Virus record (IMG/VR): IMGVR_UViG_3300025266_000013
Location: 1 to 41,826 of that record
From: a virus
DNA length: 41,826 bases
Strand: one strand, 5' to 3'
Shown: in pieces, positions 9,068-20,918 of the stretch
How positions within the stretch are numbered: position 1 is the first letter of the stretch
Layout: every line of letters starts with the position of its first letter
Notes under the pieces: generated by a model
The model's database searches: none
What the model was told of the DNA's origin: nothing
The model's input: only the letters and a program-made list of their open reading frames with translations
Position numbers and translations under genes: made by a program

Positions 9068-12000
9068 ATGGCAGGTTATTCAAGGCAGTCTACTTCAGAC
9101 ATCGTACCCACAGCTGTTGTTAAGGCTGCACCTATTAATGCAGAGTACAATAAACTAAGAGATGCTTTTACTTTTAGTGATTCTGCAACTACAGGTCACA
9201 GGCATGATGGAGATAGTGATGAAGGTTCACATGTACCTTTAATTGCAGATCCAGACGGTTTAAATAAAATAGTCGTTGATACTGGTAATAATAGACATGG
9301 TGTCTTTGTTGAAGTAGGCGGCTCTGCAGTAGAGCAGATACGTATTTCAGATGGTCTTATAGCCCCTGTCACTGATAGTGATGTTGATCTAGGTGGATCA
9401 ACTTTAGAGTTTAAAGACTTATACCTAGATGGCACTGCTCATATTGACACGCTAGACGTTGATGCAAACGCTGGTATTATTGGTGCGCTTACCGTAACGG
9501 GTGTCACCGCCCTCAACGGCGGCTTGACTATGGACAGCAACAAGTTTACCGTTGCAAACACCAGTGGTAATACAGCCATTGCAGGTACGCTTGCAGTAAC
9601 TGGCGCTACAACCTTAGCTGCTACTTCATTTGGTGATGCTAACATTACTAACGTGGGTAATATTGCTCTTGATAGTATTACGGCTGATGGTTCAACTATT
9701 ACAATTACTGGAAATACTACCTTCGCTGATGGTGCTTTTGACTTTAACATTGCTTCACACGATACTTCAAATGGTTTAAAACTAGGTGGCACATTAGTTA
9801 CATCAACCGCTGCAGAACTTAACATCTTAGATGGTGTCACATCCACTACAGCAGAACTAAACATACTTGACGGTGTAACATCTACAGCTACCGAACTTAA
9901 CTTGCTTGACGGTGTTACTGCTACAACTGCAGAGTTAAATTATCTTGATGTAACTACACTTGGTACATCTGAAGCATCTAAAGTTGTTACAGTAAATGCT
10001 AGTGGTGACTTGATTGTACCCGACAGTGATAAGTTTAACTTTGGTGCTGGCAGTGACATGGCACTGTACCATGATGGAACTAACTCTTATATCACCAATA
10101 AAACAGGTGCGTTAAAGGTTGCTACAGAAACATCTGGCATTGCAATAACCATTGGTCACACTACATCAGAAGTAACAGTAGCAGATAACCTTACAATTAC
10201 AGGTAACTTAACTGTTGGCGGTACACAGACGGTAGTTGATACTGTAACTATGAATGCAGCTAATGCTATTGTGTTTGAAGGTGCTACTGCTGACGCTCAT
10301 GAAACTACACTGACAATCGTTGATCCAACGGCAGATCGTACAATAAACCTACCCAACCAAAGTGGTACTGTTCCAGTACTGGCTGCAGCAAGTAACACAG
10401 CTATTACCGCTACACCTGCTGAGCTAAACATAATGGATGGCGGCACTAGTGCAACCTCTACTACATTAGCTGATGCTGATCGTGTCGTAGTTAATGACGC
10501 AGGCACGATGAAGCAGGTCGCTATGAGCGACATCAACGGTTACATGCAGAATAACTTGAACACGCAAGCAAATCTAACTACAGTTGGTGCGCTTAATGCT
10601 GGTTCTATCACGTCAGGCTTTGGTACTATTAACATAGGGTCTTCCGCCTTCACAACTACAGGTGCGGTAAACTTTGGTTCTCTGAATGACGGTACTATTG
10701 GAATTACAGCGTTTGTCGATGAAGATAATATGTCATCTAATAGTGCTACTCTTGTACCTACGCAGCAGAGTGTTAAAGCTTATGTGGATGGCATTTCCGC
10801 AACAGCTAATAACGTATCAGGTCTTACCGCTACAGGTGCAGAACTTAACATACTAGACGATGCTACGGTTACTACAGCAGAGCTTAACATTCTTGACGGC
10901 AGTGAAACTACACAAGCTACAGTCACTCTGGTCGGCACAGACGGTGTTGTAATCTCAGATGCTGATGTAATGAAGCAGGCACTTGTATCCGACTTTGATA
11001 CATTTATGGCAAGTACAACTAAAACTCTTACCAACAAGACCTTGACAAGCCCTACACTTAACGGTACAATTCTTGTTAGTGATGGTTCAAACGACTTGAA
11101 CATTGCTTCGCATGATGGTAGTAATGGTCTAAAGCTTGGTGGTACACTAGTTACCTCAACAGCTGCTGAGTTAAACTACAATGATACAGGTGCTGCAGTA
11201 GGTACTGTTGTAGCCAGTAAGACTGTAACAGTAGATGCAAACAAAGATGCTTCAAGCTTTCGTAACATTACAATGGCAGGAGACTTATCTATTGGTGGTG
11301 ACGTTATTACCGTCTCTAATGCTGATCTTGACTTAGCCCCACATGGAACAGGTACAGTTGTTGTAAGAGGTAATACTAACTCAGCTGCAATAGTCTTTAA
11401 CTGTGAAAGTAATAGCCACGGACAAAAAGTGTTTGGACAGCCACACTCTGCAGGTGTTACAAACACTTTAATGTTACCAGCAGGTGCTAACTCAACACTA
11501 TTATCTCGTGTTTCTGTAGATACGCTTACTAATAAAACTCTAACATCACCTAAAATTAATGAGGATGTAGCAGTAACATCTACTGCAACGGAACTAAACA
11601 TTTTAGATGGGGTCACTAGTACTACTGCTGAGCTAAATATCTTAGACGGTGTTACTTCTACAGCTGCTGAGCTAAATATCTTAGACGGTGTTACTTCTAC
11701 AGCTGCTGAGCTAAATATCTTAGATGGTGTAACTTCTACAGCCGCAGAGATAAACTTAATTGACGGCGACACAGCAAGAGGTACAACTGCTGTAGCATCA
11801 GGCGATGGCATACTAATCAATGACGCTGGCACAATGCGAATGACCAATGTTGATACAGTTTCAACATACTTTGCAGGTCACAGTGTTGGTGGTGCTAATG
11901 TAGTAACCACAGGTGCTTTGAATAGCGGATCAATTACTTCTGGCTTTGGTACAATTAATATTGGCTCCTCTGCCTTCACAACTACAGGTGCGGTAAACTT

Positions 12001-12178
12001 TGGTAGTTTAGCAGATGGTACAATTACCGTAACTGCATTTGCAGATGAAGACGATATGTCAAGTGACTCAGCTACGTTAGTGCCAACACAACAGTCGGTA
12101 AAAAAGTATGTAGACGATTCCGTTGCAACTGCAGCAAGTAAAGGCTTTGCTATTGCCGCAGCAATAGTATTTGGATAA
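9068..12178 (+). CDS. Tail fibre protein with AELN repeats
   Basis: This 1036-aa fibre follows the nozzle gene. The N-terminus ('INAEYNKLRDAF', 'TGHRHDG') is the conserved virion-attachment head seen in marine podovirus fibres. The body carries thirteen 'AELNxLD' type repeats with a 13-residue unit (TSTAAELNILDGV). They fall in four places, with the longest runs at 9799-9957 (four copies) and 11572-11770 (five copies). A ~65-residue block around 'ITSGFGTINIGSSAF' and 'LVPTQQSVKxYVD' occurs twice. 'LNIASHDxSNGLKLGGTLV' also occurs twice. The protein ends 'AIAAAIVFG' with no recognised self-cleaving chaperone domain. It should form a trimeric fibre that touches the host surface. AGGAG precedes the ATG. 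Confidence 0.85.
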   Translation: MAGYSRQSTSDIVPTAVVKAAPINAEYNKLRDAFTFSDSATTGHRHDGDSDEGSHVPLIADPDGLNKIVVDTGNNRHGVFVEVGGSAVEQIRISDGLIAPVTDSDVDLGGSTLEFKDLYLDGTAHIDTLDVDANAGIIGALTVTGVTALNGGLTMDSNKFTVANTSGNTAIAGTLAVTGATTLAATSFGDANITNVGNIALDSITADGSTITITGNTTFADGAFDFNIASHDTSNGLKLGGTLVTSTAAELNILDGVTSTTAELNILDGVTSTATELNLLDGVTATTAELNYLDVTTLGTSEASKVVTVNASGDLIVPDSDKFNFGAGSDMALYHDGTNSYITNKTGALKVATETSGIAITIGHTTSEVTVADNLTITGNLTVGGTQTVVDTVTMNAANAIVFEGATADAHETTLTIVDPTADRTINLPNQSGTVPVLAAASNTAITATPAELNIMDGGTSATSTTLADADRVVVNDAGTMKQVAMSDINGYMQNNLNTQANLTTVGALNAGSITSGFGTINIGSSAFTTTGAVNFGSLNDGTIGITAFVDEDNMSSNSATLVPTQQSVKAYVDGISATANNVSGLTATGAELNILDDATVTTAELNILDGSETTQATVTLVGTDGVVISDADVMKQALVSDFDTFMASTTKTLTNKTLTSPTLNGTILVSDGSNDLNIASHDGSNGLKLGGTLVTSTAAELNYNDTGAAVGTVVASKTVTVDANKDASSFRNITMAGDLSIGGDVITVSNADLDLAPHGTGTVVVRGNTNSAAIVFNCESNSHGQKVFGQPHSAGVTNTLMLPAGANSTLLSRVSVDTLTNKTLTSPKINEDVAVTSTATELNILDGVTSTTAELNILDGVTSTAAELNILDGVTSTAAELNILDGVTSTAAEINLIDGDTARGTTAVASGDGILINDAGTMRMTNVDTVSTYFAGHSVGGANVVTTGALNSGSITSGFGTINIGSSAFTTTGAVNFGSLADGTITVTAFADEDDMSSDSATLVPTQQSVKKYVDDSVATAASKGFAIAAAIVFG
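9799..9957 (+). repeat. AELN repeat array 1 in fibre gene
   Basis: Four consecutive 13-codon repeats of the form S/T-T-x-A/T-E-L-N-x-L-D-G-V-T. They are diverged at the DNA level, so they are older than the downstream array. Confidence 0.8.
11572..11770 (+). repeat. AELN repeat array 2, near-identical 39-bp units
   Basis: Five 39-bp tandem units. The GAG of each AELN falls at 11630, 11669 and 11708, exactly 39 nt apart, and two adjacent units are identical at the DNA level. This points to recent duplication or slippage, which would lengthen the fibre shaft in 13-residue steps. Confidence 0.85.
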
Positions 12179-17450: not shown

Positions 17451-20400
17451 ATGGCTAAGCAGTTTGGTGGTTTCACACCTGAACAACTAGGTAAGATTGA
17501 CCCAGCTATGGCAGGAATGCAGGCTGATGAACAAGTGAAGTACATGGCAGCTAATCCTGGTGTATCCTCTAGGGTAGGCAACATGGCTCAACAAGCTAAG
17601 AAGCGTATCTCTATGGCTAATGGAGGGGTAGTACGTGCTGCTGAAGGTGTTCTCCAAACATCTGGTAGCGGGAGGACTGGAGTACCTGATTGGGTGTCAC
17701 CACCACCTGAAGGGTCTACTAATACTCAAGCTCTTGTTGAACTTACAAACCCTACTACAGGGGAAAAGTATATGGCCCCAAGCGGAGGTTATACCTTAAA
17801 CCCAAAGTTTACTAAAGGTGGCGGTGATCTTGTAGGAGGACCAGCATTACCAAAGCCTATTATAGATGACCCTGTAACTACACCTCTTTACTCTGGTCCT
17901 ATGACAGCAGAAGTATCAAAGAACATTCTTAAGATGTCTACTGGTCAGATTGACGCAGACCTACAGTATGACTTTAATGGTGACGGTAAGGTTACTTCTC
18001 AGGATTCCTTAGCTGCTGCAAAGCAAGGTGTTGCCCAAGGTACAATAACAACAGGTCCAGATGCCGTTGGTGGCTTTGCAGATATACAATATGACCCTAC
18101 TACTGGATTACCTCCTGCCCCAGAATTGACAGACGAAAGTATTAACTCTGCTGTTGATACTGCATTTGAAAACCCTAACTGGAATGAGGGTACTACAGGG
18201 GTAAACGCTAATATTGGAGATGATCAAGCGTGGGCTAAGACTAGCGTAACTAATAATGCAGCTAATGCAGTTATCATGGCAGATCCTACAGACTACAAAC
18301 TAGTAAAGGTAGGCAGTTACTGGGAAGTACAATACTCTGATGGCACTTCCATTAATACGGGCCACAGAGACGCTAACATGGCTCTTGGACGTGCTAATGC
18401 TTTAGCAGCTTCATTTAAGGTTGCTGCTCCTTTAGTAGAAACTTATGCAGCAGAAGAAGCACAGTACCAGACTAACCTAAAACAATATCAAACTTATTAT
18501 GGTGTAGAAGCAGAAAGAAATACTGCTGATCCTAGTAAATCTTTAGAAGAGCAAACACAAGCTCTGGGTGCTGCACAAAACCTATTACAGACGTACACAA
18601 AACAATTAGCTAGTATGAAAGAGGATGACCCTCAAAGGGCTACTATACTAGGTTTTATTAAGGAGCAGGAACTTAAAATAGAGCAAGCAACAGCTGGTGT
18701 AAAACAGGCGCAAAGCCTTGCCACTGATGCTGCTAGGGCGGCTAGAAATGCACGAGTTGAAGCCTTTGCTAAAGATCCTACTGGAAGTGTTACTGATGCT
18801 GCAGTAGTAGACCGCATAGCCGCTGAAGACGTTGCTAAGGGTGAGATTGCTGCACTTACTGGAGATGCAGGAGAAGTAACTGATGTAATTGGTGGTGAAG
18901 TTATAGCAGAGGCTGACGTAGCAGACCCTACAGCAGTAGCTGCTAATACGTATACAGGTGAGTCAGTATTAGCAGACACTAAGAAAGAACTACTGGATGT
19001 AAAAGAAGCTGATTCGGATGGCCCAAGCCAAACAGTAGTTGGGCAAACTGGTGATATTAGCACTACATCTATAGCTGATGAGGCTATGCAAGTTGACACA
19101 CTAAAAATCCTTAAAGTAAAAGAAACTACTGATCTTCTTGTAGCCACAAACCAACTAGCAGAGTTTAAGGGTAAAGATTATGCTAAAGTTGTAGCTGACG
19201 TTGCTGTATCAGACACCCTTACTGAAGCTAAAGCACAGATAGAGACTGTAAAACTAAATGAGTTACCTACAGCACAAGTCATTGCAGAAGAAAACATGGC
19301 TGCAGCTAAAGCTATGCAGGATGAAGGTCTAACCTCAGATGCCATAGCCGTTGCTGCTAAACTTTCAAACTTTGCTGTAACTGACGGTACACTTGCCCTA
19401 GCTATGGAAGGCAGCGTACAAGCTTTAGATACTGTAGAAGGTCAACTCAGTAAGCTTATGAAGTCTTTTGATGATGGTACACCTTCTTGGGCTTCTGGAG
19501 CTATACGCGCCGCTAATGCAGCTATGGCTGGTCGTGGACTAGGTGCATCTTCTATGGCATCTGCAGCTATATTAACTGCTGCTATGGAGAGTGCATTACC
19601 TATAGCACAACAAGATGCTCAAGTCTTTAACAACATGAACCTAACTAACCTAAGCAATAGGCAGCAGGTTTCACTTAGTAATGCTGCAGCACAACAAGGT
19701 TTATCTTTAGCTAATCTTTCTAATCAACAACAAGCAAACCTGCAGAAAAGTGCTAATGCTTTTTCACTTCAAACACAGAACCTTTCTAATAGGCAGACTG
19801 TAGAGTTATCTAATGCACAGATACGTGCTACTTTACAAGGTAAAAACCTTGATAATCAACAGCAGTCCAACATTATTACTTCTGCAAGGTATGCTGAAGC
19901 AGCTAACATTAACCTTAGTAATAAGCAGCAAGCTTCCATGCAAGATAGTATGGGTGAATTGCAAACTAACTTGGCTAACCTGTCATCTAAGTCTCAGTCT
20001 TACATTACAAGTGCTAACCTTGAGGCTAACCTCCAAGGGCAGGTGCTTACTAATGATCAACAAGTAGCTGTCCTTAAGGCTGCAAGGTACTCTGAGTCAG
20101 CCAACATGACCTTCTCTGCAGATCAACAAAGAGTACTACACAACTCTTCCTTGATGCAGTCAATAGGTCTTGCTGAACTAAACGCACAACAAGCTGCTGT
20201 CCTACAGAATGCTGCTAACTCCGCTAGTATGGACATGGCTGACCTGTCTAACTTGCAACAGGCTCAGGTAGAGAATGCTAAAAACTTCTTGAATATAGAC
20301 CTAGCTAATCTCTCTAATGAACAGCAGACTATTATCTTTAAGGCTCAGGCAACACAACAAGCATTGCTGTCTGATCAAGCTTCTTTAAACTCATCTAAGC

Positions 20401-20918
20401 AGTTTAACGCAGCTAGTCAAAACCAAAAAGATCAATTTGATGAAAACTTAAAAACTCAGGTATCCCAGTTTAACGTAGAGCAAGGTAACGCAATGGAGCG
20501 TTTCACTGTTGAGCAAGGGAATGCCATAAGCACCTTTAACAAGTCACAAGAAAATGCTCGTGCTGAGTTCAATGCTAGTCAGGCTCTTGTAATTGAGCAG
20601 TCTAACGCAGTATGGAACCAAAGCATTGTAACTGCAGAGAATGCTGCTGCTGTAGCTGCTGCTGCTGCAAGTGCTCAAGCTGCTAATGAGTTCTCAGCCG
20701 CTGCTGCTGCTGCTGATGCACAAGCACAACGAGATCAAGTAAGCTTCTCTTTTCAGACTGCTAACAACAACGCAGATAGAGTTACATCACTAGCGGTGGC
20801 ACAACTGGCAAAGGATGGGGACAATTCAGCTGCAGCCGCAACTAAGAATGCTGCATTTGCTAGTGCTATTGGTGCAGTTGCTGGTAAGATTTTACCAGGC
20901 ATTATTAAAAAGTTTTGA
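17451..20918 (+). CDS. Large ejection/internal virion protein with 22-residue repeats
   Basis: This 1155-aa protein fills the place of T7-type internal core proteins. In order it has 'MANGGVVRAAEG' near residue 55, the GG linker shared with the 977-aa virion protein. A dockerin or EF-hand loop 'DFNGDGKVTSQD' lies at 174-185. A long Ala/Glu-rich helical part contains 'AGRGLGASSMASAAI' (~689-703). Eleven consecutive 22-residue repeats at 734-975 share 'LSNxQQ'. Seven 11-residue repeats at 984-1060 share 'xFNxxQxNA'. The C-terminus is Ala-rich and ends in a hydrophobic helix ('IGAVAGKILPGIIKKF'). Such 11/22-residue periods form long amphipathic helices, fitting a protein that is ejected and crosses or coats the cell envelope. 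The exact role is inferred. Confidence 0.7.
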   Translation: MAKQFGGFTPEQLGKIDPAMAGMQADEQVKYMAANPGVSSRVGNMAQQAKKRISMANGGVVRAAEGVLQTSGSGRTGVPDWVSPPPEGSTNTQALVELTNPTTGEKYMAPSGGYTLNPKFTKGGGDLVGGPALPKPIIDDPVTTPLYSGPMTAEVSKNILKMSTGQIDADLQYDFNGDGKVTSQDSLAAAKQGVAQGTITTGPDAVGGFADIQYDPTTGLPPAPELTDESINSAVDTAFENPNWNEGTTGVNANIGDDQAWAKTSVTNNAANAVIMADPTDYKLVKVGSYWEVQYSDGTSINTGHRDANMALGRANALAASFKVAAPLVETYAAEEAQYQTNLKQYQTYYGVEAERNTADPSKSLEEQTQALGAAQNLLQTYTKQLASMKEDDPQRATILGFIKEQELKIEQATAGVKQAQSLATDAARAARNARVEAFAKDPTGSVTDAAVVDRIAAEDVAKGEIAALTGDAGEVTDVIGGEVIAEADVADPTAVAANTYTGESVLADTKKELLDVKEADSDGPSQTVVGQTGDISTTSIADEAMQVDTLKILKVKETTDLLVATNQLAEFKGKDYAKVVADVAVSDTLTEAKAQIETVKLNELPTAQVIAEENMAAAKAMQDEGLTSDAIAVAAKLSNFAVTDGTLALAMEGSVQALDTVEGQLSKLMKSFDDGTPSWASGAIRAANAAMAGRGLGASSMASAAILTAAMESALPIAQQDAQVFNNMNLTNLSNRQQVSLSNAAAQQGLSLANLSNQQQANLQKSANAFSLQTQNLSNRQTVELSNAQIRATLQGKNLDNQQQSNIITSARYAEAANINLSNKQQASMQDSMGELQTNLANLSSKSQSYITSANLEANLQGQVLTNDQQVAVLKAARYSESANMTFSADQQRVLHNSSLMQSIGLAELNAQQAAVLQNAANSASMDMADLSNLQQAQVENAKNFLNIDLANLSNEQQTIIFKAQATQQALLSDQASLNSSKQFNAASQNQKDQFDENLKTQVSQFNVEQGNAMERFTVEQGNAISTFNKSQENARAEFNASQALVIEQSNAVWNQSIVTAENAAAVAAAAASAQAANEFSAAAAAADAQAQRDQVSFSFQTANNNADRVTSLAVAQLAKDGDNSAAAATKNAAFASAIGAVAGKILPGIIKKF
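19650..20375 (+). repeat. Eleven in-frame 66-bp (22-residue) repeats
   Basis: Eleven copies with no length variation, each beginning L-S-N-x-Q-Q or a close variant (L-D-N, L-T-N, F-S-A, L-N-A). DNA copies are diverged, so the exact period is held by protein selection rather than by recent duplication. Confidence 0.85.
20400..20630 (+). repeat. Seven in-frame 33-bp (11-residue) repeats
   Basis: Seven consecutive 11-residue units, for example QFNVEQGNAME and RFTVEQGNAIS. They follow the 22-residue array after an 8-residue spacer. Confidence 0.75.

Follow-up and report, generated by a model that had tools for sequence, protein, structure and literature searches.

Phase-conserved hendecad repeats in a protein family of short-tailed phages suggest a coiled-coil rod

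An 11-residue (hendecad) repeat is kept in phase in all but one of 252 relatives of a protein encoded in a 41,826-nucleotide stretch of viral DNA (the window; IMG/VR record IMGVR_UViG_3300025266_000013), although the number of repeats differs widely between them. Our leading, still tentative interpretation is that the array forms a trimeric, phase-locked hendecad coiled-coil rod and that the protein is a virion component resembling tape-measure or pilot proteins.

Results

Organization of the repeat array

The layout of the protein and of its gene neighbourhood is given in Table 1. Residues 734-975 (positions 19650-20375) divide into eleven 22-residue units, i.e. 22 hendecads, with zero remainder, and are directly followed by seven 11-residue units (residues 976-1052, positions 20376-20606), again without remainder. 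An extra in-phase hendecad (residues 723-733) lies upstream of the first 22-mer, which brings the number of hendecads between the outer anchors to 30. Self-identity within the window array amounts to 80 matches at lag 22, against 29.7 +/- 5.1 in shuffled sequences (z 9.8), and to 56 matches at lag 11, against 30.8 +/- 5.1 (z 4.9). An earlier note on this DNA had described the repeats as perfect, which holds for length, phase and counts (11 x 22, 7 x 11) but not for sequence, the mean pairwise identity of the 22-mers being 0.29 for amino acids. Their DNA copies are indeed diverged, as that note had stated: nucleotide identity averages 0.40, and Tandem Repeats Finder detected no DNA array at the repeat region. 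A strict search for (L/F/V)(S/T)(N/A/S/K)xQQ matched seven of the eleven 22-mers.

Between the family anchors, the array falls into two segments. The core pattern of segment I is L1-Q5-(V/L/I/M)9 in every other row, with Asn at position 11. Segment II displays a Phe10-Asn11 pattern, and the seven 11-mers as originally counted begin one row before it, at 20376. Six Phe follow each other at 11-residue spacing in the window protein, and Phe is the most frequent residue at position 10 of segment II in the family (413 of 607 rows).

Outside the array, the first ~60 residues of the N-terminal region are conserved among near relatives only and the rest varies, with a mean column identity of 6% over 91 members. 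The putative dockerin/EF-hand loop scored E 0.013 and 0.0094, at 16.1-16.6 bits for a Pfam cutoff of 22.9. At the other end, glycine-zipper matches were found in the family tails and Gly is present in the hydrophobic tail segment of 89% of representatives; the hydrophobicity of the tail is modest, the best 17-residue window exceeding 1.0 (Kyte-Doolittle) in 42% of members.

Table 1. Coordinates of the hendecad-repeat gene, its parts and its downstream neighbours in the window
Feature	Residues	Positions	Strand	Remarks
Hendecad-repeat protein gene	1155 aa	17451..20918	+	ORF; relatives known
N-terminal region	1-637	17451..19361	+	Variable length and sequence beyond ~60 residues
Putative dockerin/EF-hand calcium loop	154-187	17910..18011	+	DFNGDGKVTSQDS; sub-cutoff Pfam match
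Conserved head domain	638-723	19362..19619	+	WAxGAxRxAxxxMAxRGLGASSMA...ALPIAxQDA; contains anchor A (A723)
Segment I	723-986	19617..20408	+	24 hendecads, anchor A to anchor C
Segment II	987-1052	20409..20606	+	6 hendecads, anchor C to anchor B
Conserved tail domain, predicted helical	from 1053	20607..20805	+	NAxWRR..TANTA...LWQ..RD (family motif); anchor W1055
C-terminal hydrophobic Gly/Ala tail		20829..20915	+	NAAFASAIGAVAGKILPGIIKKF; glycine-zipper-like across family
Neighbour	426 aa	20946..22226	+	Lysozyme-like by eye; no Pfam match
Neighbour, PIPGxSLT family	194 aa	22665..23249	+	
Neighbour, late-module protein	687 aa	23246..25309	+	
Neighbour	1183 aa	25309..28860	+	

Conservation of phase among relatives

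The phase was measured from the head motif ALPIAQQDA (A723) to the tail tryptophan (W1055), with N986 as an intermediate anchor. All 58 proteins of the first set, which covers ten copy numbers, have an A723-W1055 distance of 2 modulo 11. Without any change, the rule was then put to two newly retrieved sets, where it held for all 80 proteins of one and for 113 of 114 of the other. By subsegment, using N986, 251 of 252 and 252 of 252 relatives are in phase. Because the sets were drawn from overlapping collections and contain near relatives, single sequences do not count as independent events, and the number of different pairings of segment I and segment II lengths, 25, is the better count. In a leave-one-out register scan of 99 representatives, 611 of the 617 windows of eight hendecads came out at register zero. 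The six off-register windows all belong to the sole exception, L168, in which four residues are missing at the array start, turning a hendecad into a heptad, and whose hendecad count was rounded down. As a control, the N- and C-terminal flanks of these relatives were measured as well; their lengths scatter over all values modulo 11.

Relatives breaking the phase had been named beforehand as the observation that would speak against the proposal; with 251 of 252 in phase, essentially none was found. Where it could be estimated, dN/dS is mostly 0.07-0.27, indicating purifying selection on the array, and the constraint at the protein level anticipated in the earlier note is thus supported. Because in-register DNA recombination alone can yield 11-residue steps without selection, the absence of small indels in arrays whose copies have by now diverged too far for easy recombination weighs more, and together with purifying selection it is the stronger evidence for phase conservation.

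Copy number and rod length

Among the 252 relatives, the total number of hendecads spans 12 to 98 (values seen: 12, 13, 14, 15, 16, 19, 20, 21, 22, 24, 25, 27, 28, 30, 38, 48, 50, 51, 58, 68, 78 and 98), with most of the variation located in segment I. This segment mostly has 14, 24 or 44 hendecads in the clade of the window protein and 20, 30, 40, 50, 60, 70 or 90 in a clade of long proteins (L160, L242-L278), shared exceptions aside. In L012 and L268, blocks of ten hendecads can be seen to repeat, and the long clade contains blocks of 110 and 220 residues (identity peaks at lag 10 and lag 20). Once a 110-residue block exists, its recombination in register explains the later steps within a clade.

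Rod lengths were computed at 0.15 nm per residue for a straight helix, leading to 33 nm in HMO-2011 and about 50 nm in the window phage. Straight arrays of 68-98 hendecads would measure 112-162 nm, which exceeds the expectation for a podovirus head; such arrays would have to fold or kink, or else lie outside the head. In phages of a single host strain, FZCC0040, the arrays have 14 or 19 hendecads, which disfavours a length dictated by the host envelope alone.

Predicted fold and surface pattern

AlphaFold2 models from two alignments are helical throughout at low confidence (mean pLDDT 55 and 60), as is common for isolated long helices. Over 21,072 array residues we counted no Pro, no Cys and 1.2% Gly, while Ala, Gln and Asn make up 45.7%, with little charge. 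From these low-confidence models and this composition we infer a helical segment, in line with what the earlier note had proposed. The array thus displays the unbroken 11-residue phase, the lack of Pro and the predicted helix of a hendecad coiled coil. A beta-solenoid or a leucine-rich repeat, prompted by the conserved Asn and the 22-residue period, is disfavoured because of the zero Pro, the low Gly content and the all-helix models.

The family average displays two hydrophobic strips on opposite sides of the helix. Analysed apart, the segments show one main strip each, on different faces, with I/V7 and F10 of segment II lying on a different face from L1, Q5 and (V/L/I/M)9 of segment I; either pattern could plausibly serve as a hendecad core that includes a polar layer. 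We therefore dropped the two opposed seams as evidence for a barrel. Sequence searches of the PDB gave chance-level matches only and Foldseek found nothing significant in the PDB; its significant matches in BFVD look like family members or relatives.

The phage and its relatives

The best DNA polymerase matches are the Roseobacter phages CRP-603 (74%) and CRP-2 (73%), and from its DNA polymerase and repeat protein the window phage is classified as an HMO-2011-type podovirus, from a group of short-tailed phages that abounds in the ocean. Relatives of the repeat protein, clustered by k-mers, occur in phages of Roseobacter RCA strains, SAR116, Pelagibacter, Pseudoalteromonas, Aeromonas, Vibrio, Rhizobium and Sinorhizobium, on hundreds of IMG/VR contigs and in three binned genomes; some lie on contigs binned as Bacteroidota and Campylobacteraceae. 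The RCA relatives are podoviruses (PMC6918029); the label IVP-D in a legend of that article could not be linked to any gene and was set aside. Public annotation of the relatives is mostly 'hypothetical protein', and 'ejection protein' was the earlier note's own reading. No Pfam or PHROG family covers the core, no published description of the family was found among open-licence articles, and the open-licence literature on the relatives yielded no virion proteome.

Accessory domains and gene neighbourhood

A C-terminal Peptidase_S74 domain is present in 14 of 69 scanned members and absent from the window protein. By motif, it was found in 18 of 252 relatives, all with 14 hendecads. One member, L205, carries a collagen-like repeat, and N-terminal LysM domains occur in L073 (CRP-235) and L039; among 91 scanned N-terminal regions, LysM and collagen were each found once. 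Tail fibres bear S74 and collagen domains more often than ejected proteins do. S74/ICA domains assemble as homotrimers (PMC4690869, PMC8326128).

Downstream, a PIPGxSLT gene follows the hendecad gene in 192 of the 193 loci with enough sequence. The CRP-603 equivalent of the 426-residue neighbour is a Cell Wall Hydrolase (PF07486), and the Slicky01 equivalent of the 1183-residue neighbour matches the virion structural protein family phrog_30152 (2.1e-18).

By analogy, the S74 chaperones and the single collagen-like domain of the relatives point to a homotrimer, and LysM, the glycine-zipper tails, the hydrolase and the linkage to a conserved gene suggest envelope penetration. Gene position, LysM and glycine zipper would fit an ejection or trans-envelope role, and S74 with collagen would speak for a trimer more than for a wide barrel that conducts DNA. 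Overall, domains and linkage favour a trimeric rod in a DNA-delivery or penetration machinery, with the trimer transferred from relatives by homology and ejection and location presumed.

Comparison with known systems

About 5% of siphophage tape measure proteins have 11-residue repeats with aromatic markers (PMC3271669, PMC5099701), and in TP901-1 removal of whole repeats is tolerated better than that of partial repeats (PMC5099701). The hendecad protein has such a repeat with an aromatic marker, and shares with these proteins (Belcaid et al, 2011, PMC3271669; TP901-1, PMC5099701) helix, 11-residue units, a fixed Phe (here in segment II), variable copy number, hydrophobic regions and a gene in the structural module. 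Unlike them, it belongs to short-tailed phages without a tube to measure, has Gln/Asn-rich 22-mers and, in some members, S74 and LysM. Nor is its length proportional to the tail of a long-tailed phage: the tail of MQM1 measures 9.2 nm (PMC10410586), for an array of 26.7 nm. Pfam and PHROG searches of the core revealed no sequence relation to known tape measure families.

The H protein of phiX174 is likewise a helical phage protein with hendecads and many Gln/Asn, but its hendecads number only three and are followed by heptads, it forms a decamer, and its ssDNA phage is unrelated; hhalign gave a probability of homology of 0.2%, from single sequences and hence with limited power. The late block downstream (roughly 190, 500-800 and 800-1300 residues) is similar in order and size to T7 gp14-gp15-gp16 and P22 gp7-gp20-gp16, and hhalign comparisons with T7 gp14, P22 gp7 and P22 gp20, also of single sequences with limited power, showed no similarity. 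The ejection proteins of T7 and P22 are not known to contain such hendecad arrays. With the S74/ICA-chaperoned trimeric fibres (T5 pb1, endosialidase), subgroup II relatives share the C-terminal Peptidase_S74; unlike in those fibres, the chaperone adjoins a predicted helical hendecad shaft and not a beta structure, and the window protein is devoid of it. By analogy, the family plausibly works like tape measure or H-tube proteins, yet it is not a member of either by the features tested.

Discussion

The interpretation we prefer, with somewhat less than even confidence, is a trimeric, phase-locked hendecad coiled-coil rod in a tape-measure- or pilot-like virion protein. The segment would be a long, straight, unbroken alpha-helical rod built from hendecads in fixed phase, with a parallel homotrimeric coiled coil as its most likely form and recurrent Gln/Asn layers in its core. 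In HMO-2011-type phages and their short-tailed relatives, the protein would form part of the late structural module, be carried in the virion and exit before or together with the DNA. The rod would then cross the periplasm, the glycine-zipper tail may work at a membrane, and the accessory domains or the neighbouring hydrolase may work on peptidoglycan. We infer the virion location, the ejection and the envelope spanning from this gene context and these domains.

The same rod could instead be the shaft of an external trimeric fibre or tail needle, with S74 helping it to fold as a chaperone and with host or virion bound through the tip or the variable N-terminal region; we regard this as unlikely, though as the most probable of the alternatives. 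S74 and collagen are typical of trimeric phage fibres (PMC4690869), the hendecad gene comes after tail fibre genes, and rods of up to 98 hendecads (about 162 nm) are easier to fit outside the head. However, it is the C-terminal half, hydrophobic tail included, that is conserved here, whereas in fibres the N-terminus that attaches to the virion is usually the conserved part and the tip the variable one, LysM in two members suggests contact with peptidoglycan, and the excerpted description of MQM1, a phage with 16 hendecads, mentions no long needle beside the short tail (PMC10410586).

A wide alpha-helical barrel conducting DNA over the periplasm, like the phiX174 H tube, appears improbable. H also has hendecads, with a lumen lined by Q/N/R (PMC7354561), the arrays are low in charge and nearly half Ala, Gln and Asn, and the two opposite strips of the family average look as if each helix contacted two neighbours. 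These points are countered by the single main strip of each segment, on differing faces, by the trimers that S74 implies, by the lumen of a trimeric coiled coil, which is too narrow for dsDNA, and by the lack of relation to H in the single-sequence hhalign comparison.

Still less probable is that the 11-residue steps arise only from in-register DNA recombination and that the phase is structurally meaningless. The recombining 110- and 220-residue blocks of the long clade, with counts in tens, are what it predicts; yet the window copies share 40% of bases and form no tandem array, divergent relatives have nonetheless gained no small indel, the flanking parts of these genes differ freely in length and the array is under purifying selection. 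Finally, the apolipoprotein- or synuclein-like helix lying on membranes put forward in the earlier note, for which the 11-residue period and the predicted helix speak, is very improbable, as the hydrophobic moment of the window array (0.193) is not higher than in shuffles (0.182 +/- 0.019), lipid-discriminant windows are rarer (1.6% vs 10.6%), the array net charge is -7 and the hydrophobic face shifts by ~160 degrees from segment I to segment II.

The trimeric rod lends itself to a bolder proposal, which we consider unlikely as a whole: short-tailed marine phages may have a tape-measure or pilot system of their own, in which a trimeric rod growing by whole-hendecad steps and reaching ~160 nm delivers or guides the genome through the envelope, two lineages mainly using ten-hendecad blocks (110 residues, about 16.5 nm). 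Behind it stands the ten-block series of segment I (14, 24, 44 and 20, 30, 40, 50, 60, 70, 90). The hendecad protein and its PIPGxSLT neighbour are a near-invariant pair across phages of Alphaproteobacteria and Gammaproteobacteria, and the phase rule is a sharp and cheap prediction for each new relative. The quantised rod would provide a natural length series, from 22 to about 160 nm, for studying how short-tailed phages cross the envelope and what effect rod length has.

Gene neighbourhood of the hendecad protein

Of 193 loci, 192 have the gene for the PIPGxSLT protein somewhere downstream of the hendecad gene. The phage records carrying the PIPGxSLT protein and those carrying the hendecad protein form nearly identical sets. 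In the long clade of relatives (L160 and L242-L278), the product of the gene after the hendecad gene begins with MGFFSKxxKGxKK..., an amphipathic stretch of strongly cationic character; the slot of this gene is occupied in the window by the 426-aa protein.

Features of the array, its flanking domains and other repeats

Segment I of the long clade, the array part between anchors A and C, nearly always spans a number of hendecads divisible by ten (20, 30, 40, 50, 60, 70 or 90), and internal similarity likewise has maxima at 5-, 10- and 20-hendecad lags. Some 20-hendecad relatives carry, after a glycine-rich tail, a CWVAREVYG C-terminal domain in place of the S74 chaperone domain. The N-terminal region of the window's hendecad protein contains a possible dockerin/EF-hand-like calcium loop, DFNGDGKVTSQDS. 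One family member (L060 11104-13695, MW202701) is publicly annotated as 'huntingtin', a label that seems to come from reading too much into an automatic match. Elsewhere in the window, a 1036-aa ORF, probably encoding a tail fibre, contains two tandem repeat arrays.

Coordinates of features in the window and in relatives (L-numbers)
Feature	Location	Remark
Dockerin/EF-hand-like calcium loop, hendecad protein	window 17910-18011	Pfam match below cutoff
39-bp tandem repeat arrays	window 9800-9933 and 11625-11754	within ORF 9068-12178
PIPGxSLT protein, 194 aa	window 22665-23249	
Gene with cationic amphipathic start, long clade	L246 7816-8919; L268 6895-8091; L258 10011-11399	
CWVAREVYG C-terminal domain	L056 13044-15164; also L215, L219, L237, L241
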